This document shows, one piece after another, positions 2,158 through 27,472 of a stretch of 33,248 nucleotides of DNA. The DNA is taken from the NCBI GenBank assembly GCA_030648495.1, contig JAUSHV010000033.1, forward strand, positions 1 through 33,248. Reading direction: 5' to 3'. The DNA comes from a bacterium (GTDB lineage: Bacteria; Patescibacteriota; Minisyncoccia; UBA11713; 2-01-FULL-45-33). Within the stretch, counting starts at the first letter, position 1. Each line of letters opens with the position of its first letter. The translations under genes were made by a program, and so were the position numbers. Under the pieces are notes generated by a model, which searched no databases, was not told the DNA's origin, and saw only the letters and a list, made by a program, of their open reading frames with translations.

Positions 2158-3129
2158 ATGGTGCAAAGCAGTCGGTTTGACAGCTTGAATTTGAATAAGA
2201 TATGTGGGAAATATCGGGTCAGCCTTTGGCAATGCCCGCAATTTTTGTTTTTAGTAATGGGCATGGTGATAATAGTTGCGATAATATCGGCCTATGTTGT
2301 TGCGAGCAAATACCAGGAGCCGGAGCTGGCGGCGGTTTCCGTGCTTATCCTGGCGGTGGTGCTTTTTGTAGTAGGACATATGATAATTTCAGCGTTTGAA
2401 AAAGTCGCCACAGCTTCTTTATCCAAATCAGAATTTATCAGTATTATGTCGCATCAATTAAGGAGTCCGCTTTCGGCGGTCAAGTGGCAATTAAATATGA
2501 TGCTTTCCGGTGACGGAAATGCCGCCGTGTCGAACGAGTCGCGTAACTTCCTTGAGGCCATTTACGACCAGAACGAACGCATGATACGCGCGGTAAACGA
2601 TCTTTTGGAGGTAAACCGCATAGAAGACGGAGATCTGGTTATGCGCCCATCACTTTTCTCTCTTTTTGCTCTTACCGGCCGGGTAGCCGGCGAATTTGAA
2701 AAATTTTCTTTAGTGAATAATACTAAAATCAGCATATTGGCCCAAAAAGATTTGCCGATGGTGTATGCTGATGAGGAGCGCATAAGACGGGTAATGGAAC
2801 ATTTGATAGATAACGCGGTTCGCTACAGCGCCCAAAAAGGAGATATTGCTATAAGCTTGGAGAAAAAAAACGACAATGTTCTCTGCAAGATTAGCGACCA
2901 GGGGACAGGGATATCGGATTCGGAAAAAACAAGGGTGTTCGATAAATTTTTCCGTTCAGTGAACGCAGCCAGGTACCAAACCGAAGGTAGCGGCGTGGGT
3001 TTGTTCATCGCAAAATCGATAATCAAATTATCCGGAGGGGAAATCGGATTTTCTTCTCTGCTCGGGAAAGGGTCGATTTTTTGGTTCATATTGCCTGTCC
3101 GCCGAGGAGGCGGGCCAATTAATAATTAA
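2158..3129 (+). CDS. Membrane sensor histidine kinase (HisKA-HATPase_c)
   Basis: Two TM segments, H-box SEFISIMSHQLRSPLSAVKW, HATPase motifs (DNAVRYSAQKGDIAI, DQGTGI, GSGVGLFIAKSII); start placed at ATG 2158 rather than 2119 from -10 position. Confidence 0.9.
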   Translation: MVQSSRFDSLNLNKICGKYRVSLWQCPQFLFLVMGMVIIVAIISAYVVASKYQEPELAAVSVLILAVVLFVVGHMIISAFEKVATASLSKSEFISIMSHQLRSPLSAVKWQLNMMLSGDGNAAVSNESRNFLEAIYDQNERMIRAVNDLLEVNRIEDGDLVMRPSLFSLFALTGRVAGEFEKFSLVNNTKISILAQKDLPMVYADEERIRRVMEHLIDNAVRYSAQKGDIAISLEKKNDNVLCKISDQGTGISDSEKTRVFDKFFRSVNAARYQTEGSGVGLFIAKSIIKLSGGEIGFSSLLGKGSIFWFILPVRRGGGPINN

Positions 3130-3141
3130 TAATTAAAAAAT

Positions 3142-3516
3142 ATGAAAAAGATACTGTTTGTGGAAGACGAAGAATCTTTGCAAAAATCATTAGGGGCGGC
3201 GCTTGAGGAGCAAAATTACCAGGTTTTCAGGGCTTTGGACGGTGAGGCCGGCCTTAGCCTGGCAAAAAAAGAACTGCCCGCCCTTATTTTATTGGACCTG
3301 ATACTGCCAAAAAAGAACGGATTCGAGGTGTTGTCCGAGCTGAAGAGCGATCCCTCCACCAAAAATATCCCGATAATAGTTTTGACCAATCTGGAGGGGT
3401 CCGCGGATGTAGAGAGGGCGCTTACCTCGGGCGCGACAACTTATTTGGTGAAAGCCAATTATACTTTGCAGGATGTTATAGCAAAGATTGAAGGAGTTTT
3501 AAGCCACTCAAAATAA
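3142..3516 (+). CDS. Single-domain response regulator (CheY-like receiver)
   Basis: KKILFVEDEESLQ, LILLDLILPKKNGFEVL, PIIVLTN, receiver only. Confidence 0.93.
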   Translation: MKKILFVEDEESLQKSLGAALEEQNYQVFRALDGEAGLSLAKKELPALILLDLILPKKNGFEVLSELKSDPSTKNIPIIVLTNLEGSADVERALTSGATTYLVKANYTLQDVIAKIEGVLSHSK

Positions 3517-14240: not shown

Positions 14241-14286
14241 GTAGTTGTATTTTTATTAAGTAGTTGTGGAATGTAATAAAATATTT

Positions 14287-15654
14287 ATGGATAACCAACA
14301 ATTAAAAAAAGTAAAACTCAAAATTCACGGCATGCATTGCTCAAGCTGTGAGATTCTTATTGAACGGAAATTCAAACAAGTTGCCGGAATTGAAAAAGTT
14401 AAAGTAAATCACGCGAACGGCAAAGCGGAGCTTATTTGCTCGTGCGAACCGGATTTGCACCAGCTGAATAGGCTGGTAAAAGAAGACGGCTATCAGGTTT
14501 CTTCGTGGGATGAACGCAGTAATAGTTCTCACGCCGTTGCTCATAAAAATACCTTTACGGATTATTTGCAGATAGGGTGGATTTTTCTTGTGATTGTTTC
14601 TTTGTATTATATTTTGAAACAACTGGATTTTCTGCCTGCTATTTCCGTAACACAGCGCATGAGTTACAGTCTGATTTTCGTTATCGGTTTGGTCGCCGCA
14701 GTATCGTCATGCATCGCCGTTGTAGGAGGGCTTCTCTTGGCACTTGCGGGGAAGTACAACGAAGCACATCCTAATCTCACAGGAATTCAAAAATTCAAAC
14801 CGCATATCTATTTTAATGCCGGACGCATTGCGGGGTATACCGTCTTTGGCGCCGCGGTTGGAGTATTGGGCTCCGTGATGACTCTTTCGCCAAAAGTAAA
14901 CGGCTATCTTATGATATTGGTGAGCGTAGTAATGCTTATGCTCGGATTTCAATTGCTTCATCTTTTTCCGGGATTAAGGCGGTTCAGCCCGAAAATGCCG
15001 AAATTCATCAGCCACAAAATTCACGATCTTAGTACAAAAGAAAGCAGGGGCGCGCCGTTTGTTCTTGGCTCATTAACATTTTTTCTGCCCTGTGGCTTTA
15101 CACAGGCATTGCAGCTGTATGTTTTGGCAAGCGGAGACTGGAAAATCGGAGCATTAACAATGTTTACGTTCTCATTGGGGACTTTGCCTGCATTGCTTTC
15201 GCTCAGCGCCGTTTCAAGCTTTGCCAAAGGCGTATTTCAAAAACACTTTTTGAGATTCGCCGGTGTATTGATTGTCTTGCTCGCCGTATTCAATATAAAC
15301 AACGGTTTAACACTTGCGGGATACAGTTTCGATTTTAAACAACCTGATGCGTCTCCGGTACAAATTGTGAACGGAAAGCAGATTGTGAAAATGAAAGTCA
15401 GCGGTTATACATATACGCCCAACAGATTTACAGTTGTTGAAGGTGTGCCGGTTGAGTGGCAGATAGATGGCGGTAACGCAGCCGGATGCGGCCGCGTAAT
15501 AGTAATGCCGTCTTTGGGCATTAGCAAATACCTGATACCTGAAGGAATTACCATAATTACCTTTATCCCTTCGCGCACGGGAGATATTCCTTTCAATTGC
15601 AGTATGGGCATGATGACTCGTGGCTCGGGATTTACCGTTATTAGCCGAAATTAA
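14287..15654 (+). CDS. HMA domain - TauE/SafE (DsbD-like) membrane domain - cupredoxin-like fusion
   Basis: GMHCSSC HMA motif; multi-TM block (GGLLLALAGKYNEAH...FFLPCGFTQALQLYVLASGDWKIGALTMFTFSLGTLPALL); C-terminal cupredoxin-like FNCSMGMMTRG. Confidence 0.85.
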   Translation: MDNQQLKKVKLKIHGMHCSSCEILIERKFKQVAGIEKVKVNHANGKAELICSCEPDLHQLNRLVKEDGYQVSSWDERSNSSHAVAHKNTFTDYLQIGWIFLVIVSLYYILKQLDFLPAISVTQRMSYSLIFVIGLVAAVSSCIAVVGGLLLALAGKYNEAHPNLTGIQKFKPHIYFNAGRIAGYTVFGAAVGVLGSVMTLSPKVNGYLMILVSVVMLMLGFQLLHLFPGLRRFSPKMPKFISHKIHDLSTKESRGAPFVLGSLTFFLPCGFTQALQLYVLASGDWKIGALTMFTFSLGTLPALLSLSAVSSFAKGVFQKHFLRFAGVLIVLLAVFNINNGLTLAGYSFDFKQPDASPVQIVNGKQIVKMKVSGYTYTPNRFTVVEGVPVEWQIDGGNAAGCGRVIVMPSLGISKYLIPEGITIITFIPSRTGDIPFNCSMGMMTRGSGFTVISRN

Positions 15655-18525: not shown

Positions 18526-18574
18526 TACTCGTTCTTTATCTTGAGCTTTTGGATGCGGGTTTTGTCGAGTTTTG
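18526..18574 (-). repeat. Duplicate of hsp20 3' end (copy distal to the TA cassette)
   Basis: 48/49 identity to 19110-19158; encodes the same KLDKTRIQKLKIKNE-stop peptide. Confidence 0.9.
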
Positions 18575-19108: not shown

Positions 19109-19576
19109 TTACTCGTTCTTGATCTTGAGCTTTTGGATGCGGGTTTTGTCGAGTTTTGGGAGACGGATGGTAACAAGGCCGTTTTTGATTGTTGCTTCGG
19201 ATTCGTCGGGGTCTATCTCCTGTGGCAAGAGGACAGAACGGCTAAACGCGCCCCAGTAGAGTTCCTGGTAAAAATAATCGCTTCCCGCTACCTCTTTCAA
19301 TCTTTCGCGTTTTCCGGAGAGCGTGATAGAGTCTTGCGAAATAGACACGTCCAAATCCTCGGGTTTTACGCCCGCAACGATGCTCTGGACGATAATTTCA
19401 TCAGGCGTTTGCCAGACGTCAACCGTAAGCTGGGCCTCTTCCTCGGTTTCAACGGACGTTGCTGCTACGGTGGCGCGCACAGAACCCAAATTTGTAGGCT
19501 TTAAATGCACCGAATTCATTGCTTCGTCTATTTTTACGCTACCGGTAAGCCTTTCAAAAAATGAACGTTTTTCCAT
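19109..19576 (-). CDS. Small heat-shock protein, Hsp20/alpha-crystallin family
   Basis: DVWQTPDEIIVQSIVAGVKPEDLDVSISQDSITLSGKRERLKE...GAFSRSVLLPQEIDPDESEATIKNGLVTIRLPK. Confidence 0.93.
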   Translation of the reverse strand: MEKRSFFERLTGSVKIDEAMNSVHLKPTNLGSVRATVAATSVETEEEAQLTVDVWQTPDEIIVQSIVAGVKPEDLDVSISQDSITLSGKRERLKEVAGSDYFYQELYWGAFSRSVLLPQEIDPDESEATIKNGLVTIRLPKLDKTRIQKLKIKNE

Positions 19577-23612: not shown

Positions 23613-23687
23613 GCTCCTATCGTCTAGCCTGGCCTAGGACACCGGCTTTTCAAGCCGAGAACCCGGGTTCGAATCCCGGTGGGAGCA
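23613..23687 (+). tRNA. tRNA-Glu (anticodon TTC)
   Basis: GCTCCTA/TGGGAGC acceptor; loop TTTTCAA; T-arm CCGGG-TTCGAAT-CCCGG; no encoded CCA. Confidence 0.92.
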
Positions 23688-23799
23688 AACGCACAGTTAA
23701 AATTATAAAATAGAACGCTTGAACACGACGGGATGAGAACCGCGGGCCGCAGGCACCGAAGAGGTGCTGTAGGTTTCGAGCCGTAGCAACGGCGAGAGG
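23688..23799 (+). other. tRNA-associated structured element, copy A
   Basis: Shares 45-nt core (23737-23781) with copy B; hairpins GGCACC-GAAGA-GGTGCT and GCCGT-AGCA-ACGGC; bounded by tRNA-Glu 3' end copies 23670-23689 and 23800-23819. Confidence 0.75.
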
Positions 23800-23819
23800 C
23801 GAATCCCGGTGGGAGCAAA
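23800..23819 (+). repeat. Direct repeat of tRNA-Glu 3' end
   Basis: CGAATCCCGGTGGGAGCAAA identical to 23670-23689. Confidence 0.95.
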
Positions 23820-23824
23820 AATTT

Positions 23825-24031
23825 ATGGAAATACCATCAAAAAAAGACCAAATTTCTTTTGAAGAATTGCAATCGTTTATAAATGATCCCGCCTTGGATT
23901 TACCCGAGCTAAGAAGAGATATGTCAAAAGAAGAAAATATCCGCTGGCTTGTGAGAAATATTTTAATTCAAAATGGCGATAAAGTATCAGAAGAGCATTA
24001 TAAGGCCCTGGGCGCTTTGCTTAAAAAATAA
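23825..24031 (+). CDS. Small hypothetical protein
   Basis: 68-aa ORF between tRNA genes. Confidence 0.55.
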   Translation: MEIPSKKDQISFEELQSFINDPALDLPELRRDMSKEENIRWLVRNILIQNGDKVSEEHYKALGALLKK

Positions 24032-24095
24032 TCTGAAGCATTTCTTCCGATATTTGCAATGGGAGAAATTATAATCAATAATTTAAGTAATATTT

Positions 24096-27210: not shown

Positions 27211-27251
27211 GATGTGTAATACACCAGACTTTTAAAAACTATATAAAATGG

Positions 27252-27269
27252 TGCGCGATGTAGGGATTG
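27252..27269 (-). repeat. Direct repeat of tRNA-Val(TAC) 3' end
   Basis: TGCGCGATGTAGGGATTG (plus) identical to 27401-27418; flanking bases would give an ACCA tail. Confidence 0.95.
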
Positions 27270-27337
27270 CCTCTCACTTCTGTTGAAGCTCGAAACCTAC
27301 GGCGCCTCTTCGGCGCCTGCGGCCCGCGGTTCAATCC
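27270..27337 (-). other. tRNA-associated structured element, copy B (conserved part)
   Basis: Minus strand GGATTGAACCGCGGGCCGCAGGCGCCGAAGAGGCGCCGTAGGTTTCGAGCTTCAACAGAAGTGAGAGG; 42/45 core identity to copy A. Confidence 0.75.
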
Positions 27338-27351
27338 TCTAAACCAAACTC

Positions 27352-27398
27352 TTGGAAATAAAAAATACCTCCATAAATGGAAGTATTTTTATTTCCAA
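27352..27398 (-). terminator. Long inverted repeat, probable terminator of the tRNA-Phe/tRNA-Val unit
   Basis: TTGGAAATAAAAATACTTCCA-TTTA-TGGAGGTATTTTTTATTTCCAA (minus); the single base change is G-U on minus, C-A on plus. Confidence 0.6.
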
Positions 27399-27400
27399 TG

Positions 27401-27472
27401 TGCGCGATGTAGGGATTGAACCTACGACCTACCCGGTGTAAACGGGTCGCTCTGCCACTGAGCTAATCGCGC
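27401..27472 (-). tRNA. tRNA-Val (anticodon TAC)
   Basis: GCGCGAT/ATCGCGC acceptor; ACCCG-TTTACAC-CGGGT; T-arm GTAGG-TTCAATC-CCTAC; no encoded CCA. Confidence 0.94.

Follow-up and report, generated by a model that had tools for sequence, protein, structure and literature searches.

Integration at an att site in the T-loop of a tRNA gene, with the tRNA 3' end restored, is the classical pattern of integration into tRNA genes. The attP site of CTX-type phages is made by folding single-stranded DNA and is Xer-dependent. Integron integrases join single-stranded and double-stranded partners (PMC4792948), and mobile double-hairpin elements of mitochondrial genomes are tiny repeats which spread without an evident gene (PMC2800124). 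Here we describe a structured unit found 3' of tRNA-Glu(TTC) on contig JAUSHV010000033.1 of a member of the Patescibacteriota (assembly GCA_030648495.1, genome G000). The whole stretch of 33,248 nt that was analysed is called the window. It stems from a genome of Paceibacteria type, and its tsaD gene has its best relatives in Candidatus Giovannonibacteria. An earlier note on this DNA had proposed a minimal element, site-specifically integrated in the T-loop and restoring the tRNA 3' end. Other copies, a covarying core and an empty site at T55/C56 bear this out. We see about an even chance that the unit is a small, apparently non-autonomous mobile cassette inserting between T55 and C56 of tRNA genes. 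Our literature search found no paper describing the element, with bioRxiv and most subscription journals lying outside that search.

In the first copy (copy A) the 20-bp 3' end of tRNA-Glu, counted from C56 (CGAATCCCGGTGGGAGCAAA), occurs at 23670-23689 and is repeated identically at 23800-23819. The 110 nt separating the two ends contain two GC-rich hairpins. An exact 20-mer repeat at such close range is far beyond chance. The core meets the second tRNA-Glu end exactly as GAGAGG/C56 (the slash marks the junction), so both the duplication and the junction had been read correctly in the earlier note. On the tRNA strand the order is tRNA positions 1-55, C56-A73, spacer, 5' arm, AACC, hairpin A, hairpin B, GAGAGG and once more C56-A73. 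The whole element takes up ∼130 bases and the folded core 60 nt.

The direction of the insertion was read from two genomes of the same genus, G001 and G002. For tRNA-Val(CAC) the gene in G002 is without the core and provides an empty site for comparison. The 400 bp of G000 from the second tRNA-Val(CAC) end onward aligned to the uninterrupted end and flank in G002 with a score of 412, whereas the inserted spacer reached a score of only 18 and gave no alignment. The inserted piece therefore consists of a new C56-A73, an open reading frame (ORF) of 203 aa and the core, and it entered precisely at the boundary of T55 and C56. To its right stayed the old 3' end, which has since been altered; the new end arrived with the insert. 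The duplicate described earlier is real, but its roles are exchanged: at tRNA-Glu, too, the second copy would be the old native end and the copy inside the intact tRNA would have come with the insert. A non-coding RNA with a captured tRNA 3' half, the other origin considered in the earlier note, does not fit the empty site. The tRNA genes carrying the unit are interrupted but not broken, since the insert supplies a new ending. G001 is empty at tRNA-Val(TAC), and there the end of the tRNA adjoins the APRT gene directly, as the right-hand copy does in G000. The Ryanbacteria pair L021/L022 gave the same picture by eye; the local alignment is dominated by a neighbouring tRNA and carries little weight.

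BLAST of the whole genome had already shown further copies, and with a covariance model of the family-1 core (R1) we found eight in G000. They lie 3' of eight different tRNAs: Glu, Ile, Trp, Val(TAC), Ser(CGA), Ser(GGA), Val(CAC) and Lys(TTT). The search for other copies and the covariance model suggested in the earlier note thus yielded copies in this genome and more in relatives. Rfam 15 reported only tRNA at the gathering score and, around copy A, only chance-level matches at a permissive threshold; no Rfam family describing the element was found. Counted from the locus listings, 29 of ∼36 family-1 copies have a tRNA on the same strand at most ∼210 nt upstream. Where the duplicate is exact or nearly so, it repeats the end of the tRNA immediately upstream, beginning at C56. 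Examples of the duplicate length are 31 nt for Ile, 21 for Gly and Arg, and 20 for Glu, Ser and Val; across the well-matched copies the start at C56 is fixed and the far end varies, giving roughly 15 to 31 bp. Right-hand ends which are decayed or unlike the nearest tRNA were observed at L108, L112, L116, L120, L126 and L128-L130. By eye, CCA is encoded more often in the right-hand than in the left-hand copy. The crossover GAGAGG/CRA is present in nearly all family-1 copies.

The polarity of the unit is defined. Across the 212 tRNA genes surveyed we detected a copy of the 3' end downstream in 20 cases and upstream in none. A scan independent of the model, covering 105 tRNA genes in 80 unrelated loci, likewise gave five downstream and no upstream copies. 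All five start at C56 or one base past it, and their inserts do not belong to family 1.

The spacer is 2-206 nt long in most copies. It is often a long terminator-like hairpin of ∼45 nt and sometimes a gene instead. We do not count this hairpin among the constant parts, since uninterrupted tRNAs have such hairpins as well and several units are without one. Nothing in the gene cargo stands out: the 203-aa ORF of the tRNA-Val(CAC) unit shows a sub-threshold likeness to 2H phosphoesterases, the 134-aa ORF of a longer unit matched nothing, and the ORFs of two longer units matched no integrase family. In G002 (L198, 7945-9849) we also noted a 2.3-kb stretch holding three ORFs (158, 152 and 297 aa) between the old tRNA-Val 3' end and APRT. 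This stretch is missing from G000 and G001, and a second core was not seen there.

To describe the fold we used 38 aligned copies; as they were aligned by fitting to the model, there is a bias in favour of the structure, and the following rates are to be read with this in mind. Standard pairs occupied 89.2% of the cells. Double-changed cells numbered 171 compared to 54 after shuffling, a value reached in 0 of 500 shuffles, and pairing dropped to 42-43% when the partner was slid by one base. At one position of hairpin B all of AU, UA, CG and GC were seen. The helices pairing GGCACC with GGTGCT, GCCGT with ACGGC and CGGGAT with ATCCCG, as drawn in the earlier note, all covary. The enclosing helix drawn there fared less well, with GAACC and GGTTTC paired in 86% of the cells against 94% for GGCC and GGTT; GAACC is instead complementary to GGTTC of the tRNA itself. 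Helix 2 contains G.T pairs in 63 cells and A.C pairs in none, and therefore it is the tRNA-sense strand that folds, either as RNA or as single-stranded DNA.

The 5' arm fits its own right-hand copy better than the ends of other tRNAs. For positions 56-62 the score was 188 against 151 (standard deviation 4.4) and for positions 63-74 it was 83.5 against 50.6 (standard deviation 6.5), with 0 of 2000 permutations reaching the observed value for each half. As the specificity extends over both halves, the arm was probably once complementary to the whole tRNA 3' end. In 30 of the 38 rows the arm is directly followed by AACC, the complement of the GGTT common to nearly all tRNAs, and in the best copies arm and AACC together complement the uninterrupted T-arm exactly.

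The distribution of the unit is patchy. In a class sample of 384 genomes R1 matched 14; 12 of these matches have tRNA context and come from nine families, and the weak ones in G327 and G378 (L122, L123) are without a tRNA and were counted as chance. In the 12 genomes the copies nearly always follow different tRNAs, and most of them end in the 3' end of the tRNA concerned. In a phylum sample of 381 genomes only the genome of the window and one borderline case, G719, were matched. Within the genus there were six matches in G002 and none in G001. Tandem units occur at tRNA-Asp (G002), tRNA-Leu (G084), tRNA-Lys (G000) and at both tRNA-Glu and tRNA-Tyr (G375), and decayed copies at Met in G002 and G000. 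An assembly artefact was rejected because copies recur in many independent genomes.

Other cores use the same place. One group outside family 1 shares GAAAGNCGGA...GGGTCG...TGAC/C56 and another core type lies 3' of tRNA-Asp in G001 and G002. These other core families are without the CC of AACC. We folded two members of the first group, one Asp-type core and one example from L021. Each formed a three-way junction of a closing stem and hairpins A and B, and the fold was far better than that of shuffled sequences for the first group and weakly better for the Asp type. Unrelated cores of the same three-way-junction shape thus occupy the same tRNA site in other Paceibacteria.

A viral, phage or plasmid origin was not supported. 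The family-1 core had no match in viral contigs and only short, chance-like and unconvincing matches in phages and plasmids. One contig filed as viral (L258, IMGVR_UViG_3300033463_005745) carries tandem family-2 cores with tRNA-Ser-like 3' ends at ∼2620-3319. These adjoin galE-like, cysE-like and cytidine-deaminase-like genes, and the genes of the contig look cellular.

Compared with the known systems, the unit resembles an integron cassette in its behaviour, with a tRNA gene as the anchor. Like cassettes, the units are short and end in a folded, covarying structure resembling a recombination site, keep the fold while the sequence varies, may carry a gene, and stack in tandem with a defined polarity at a fixed anchor. 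However, the anchor is a tRNA gene instead of attI, most units have a terminator instead of a gene, and each has a tRNA 3' end. We do not file the unit as an integron because it fails two defining features: by eye, the crossover GG/C56 does not agree with the attC boxes RYYYAAC ... G/TTRRRY, and IntI was not found in the carriers checked. With tRNA-targeting islands and prophages it shares T-loop integration, a restored tRNA 3' end and the old end at the far side, but it measures only ∼130 bp, has no integrase gene, uses one core for many different tRNAs per genome, and its fold includes the tRNA-derived end. As for a CTX-type attP, the folded strand could offer a double-stranded site to the host Xer; here the target is a tRNA gene and not dif, phage genes are missing, and the mechanism is a proposal. 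The mitochondrial double-hairpin elements are likewise tiny hairpin repeats with no evident gene, though to our knowledge neither a fixed T55/C56 site nor a tRNA-matched arm has been described for them. Guide-like target pairing and hairpins near the cut recall the IS110 bridge RNA and IS200/IS605. The matching enzymes are, however, not common to the carriers: IS110 is missing from 10 of 11 (present only in G062) and the Y1 transposase of IS200/IS605 from 3 of 10 (G084, G091 and G355, the last listed as 100% complete).

The only tested enzyme family present in every carrier searched is the tyrosine recombinase. PF00589 detected a single one in G000, G062, G336, G355 and G375, among others, three in G002 and two in G091. 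Typing covered G000, G355 and G375, leaving the extra recombinases of G002 and G091 untyped; all three typed enzymes scored above the XerA cut-off and far below the integron-integrase cut-off and are thus Xer-type. The carriers checked thus yielded no integron integrase. A dedicated tyrosine integrase, the Y1 transposase and IS110 are not supported as a common mover by these searches, and the tyrosine recombinase is a candidate mover of the unit. If the mover is unlike a tyrosine recombinase, the unit is possibly categorically new.

Beyond the insertion between T55 and C56 we infer every step of the mechanism. The mobile unit would consist of the new C56-A73, the spacer, the 5' arm complementary to that end and the 60-nt folded core. 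In a single-stranded circle the 5' arm and C56-A73 would pair and form a duplex that mimics the end of the tRNA gene beside the two hairpins. The cut would fall at GG/C56, next to the junction, and the circle junction would read GAGAGG/CGAATCCCGG. A recombinase would then exchange one strand of this duplex into the tRNA gene, in the manner of integron integrases acting on folded attC sites. Several observations weigh against such an imported cassette. No recombinase is linked to the unit, and a circle, excision or movement was never observed. The conserved G.U pairs and tandem GA suit RNA equally well. Furthermore, 15 of 25 comparable tRNAs differ between G000 and G002, and at tRNA-Val(TAC) both 3'-end copies share three differences between the two genomes. 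The two copies agree completely more often than would be expected of imported cassettes and change together at tRNA-Val(TAC), which suggests that the new end was copied from the target.

This agreement between left and right copies, together with the shared tRNA-Val(TAC) differences, makes guided target copying a real rival, even if we rate it as rather improbable. The 5' arm GGATTCGAACC of the core RNA would recognise GGTTCGAATCC in the T-arm by pairing, and the tRNA 3' end would be doubled by a polymerase or reverse transcriptase as a target-site duplication. The exact complementarity of the arm plus AACC in the best copies, the start at C56 with a variable far end, and the conserved G.U pairs all fit, but no candidate protein was found (IS110 occurs in 1 of 11 carriers, and reverse transcriptases were outside the search) and the CC of AACC is missing from the other core families. 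A functional small RNA appears less probable still: an old insertion with its fold under selection, whose transcribed core and tRNA-like tail would act on the adjacent tRNA through regulation or processing. It would account for the strong covariation with conserved G.U and GA motifs, the stable folds and the terminators which often lie between tRNA and core and point to a separate transcript, but hardly for the patchy presence (12 of 384 class genomes, none by R1 in G001 of the same genus), the tandem arrays, the decayed Met copies, the existing empty site, or unrelated cores being interchangeable at the same spot. We consider it very unlikely that the units are shrunken remnants of islands or phages that once had their own tyrosine integrase and a T-loop att site. 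T-loop att sites and restored 3' ends are that classical pattern, and a gene-bearing insert exists at tRNA-Val(CAC). Remnants would nevertheless have no reason to keep a covarying single-strand fold with an arm tracking each tRNA; spacers of 2-206 nt in most copies, the absence of an extra integrase from G000, G062, G336, G355 and G375, and the failure to match the core convincingly in viral contigs, phages or plasmids also speak against it.

A wider version of the cassette reading is possible, although we hold it only tentatively. The units would form a nucleic-acid-guided class of cassettes, widespread in Paceibacteria, with tRNA genes as integration platforms. A T-arm complement on the folded strand or RNA would recognise tRNA genes by pairing, insert at T55/C56, copy or restore the end and build gene arrays off tRNA promoters, without an integron integrase. 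Table 1 gives the features of the two copies in the window.

Table 1. Features of copies A and B, with positions in the window.
Feature	Position	Strand	Evidence or remark
tRNA-Glu(TTC), insertion target	23613-23687	+	ARAGORN; Rfam RF00005, 56.3 bits
tRNA-Glu C56-A73, putative new 3' end supplied by the insert	23670-23687	+	direction taken from the tRNA-Val(CAC) empty site
Copy A spacer	23688-23728	+	no terminator hairpin, unlike many other copies
Copy A 5' arm CGGGATGAG plus AACC	23729-23741	+	decayed reverse complement of the T-arm GGTT-CGAATCCCG
Copy A structured core, ends GG/C56	23742-23799	+	R1 96.8 bits, E 1.2e-26; covariation
Hairpin A, GGCC-GCA-GGCACC-GAAGA-GGTGCT-GTA-GGTT	23745-23775	+	within copy A core
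Hairpin B, TC-GA-GCCGT-AGCA-ACGGC-GA-GA	23776-23797	+	within copy A core
Second tRNA-Glu 3' end from C56, putative old native end	23800-23819	+	repeat identity; empty site at another tRNA
tRNA-Val(TAC), target of copy B	27400-27472	-	
Copy B spacer with long, nearly perfect terminator-like hairpin	27342-27399	-	
Copy B 5' arm, core and start of the old tRNA-Val 3' end (C56 at 27269)	27261-27341	-	R1 95.2 bits, E 4.0e-26
Second tRNA-Val 3' end CAATCCCTACATCGCGCAC, then CA, so that CCA is encoded	27251-27269	-	19-nt identity

Immediately past the old tRNA-Glu end lies a 68-aa ORF (23826-24032, +) with no Pfam match. The window also contains a 49-bp direct repeat (18526-18574 and 19110-19158, 98% identical, 584 bp apart). 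Elsewhere, orphaned copies of tRNA 3' ends contain a second GC-rich hairpin, which is REP-like (CCCGCCTGCAACGC...GCATTGCGGGCAGG and variants) and apparently lies within their T-arm; we observed it at L106, L108, L112, L114, L157 (near 13156) and L188 (minus strand, near 596). On contig 5 of G375 (L242, ∼14286-14530) a tRNA gene missed by ARAGORN seems, by eye, to be split by a group I intron-like sequence; it also has a family-1 unit in the T-loop.

If the cassette reading is true, the units would give bacteria with very small genomes an integron-like means of gathering DNA, anchored in essential tRNA genes. They show that a tRNA gene can take up insertions time and again at a single exact base without being lost. 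They also offer a defined substrate (GG/C56, 80 nt) in the search for the enzyme and account for odd tRNA 3'-end duplications in Patescibacteria.
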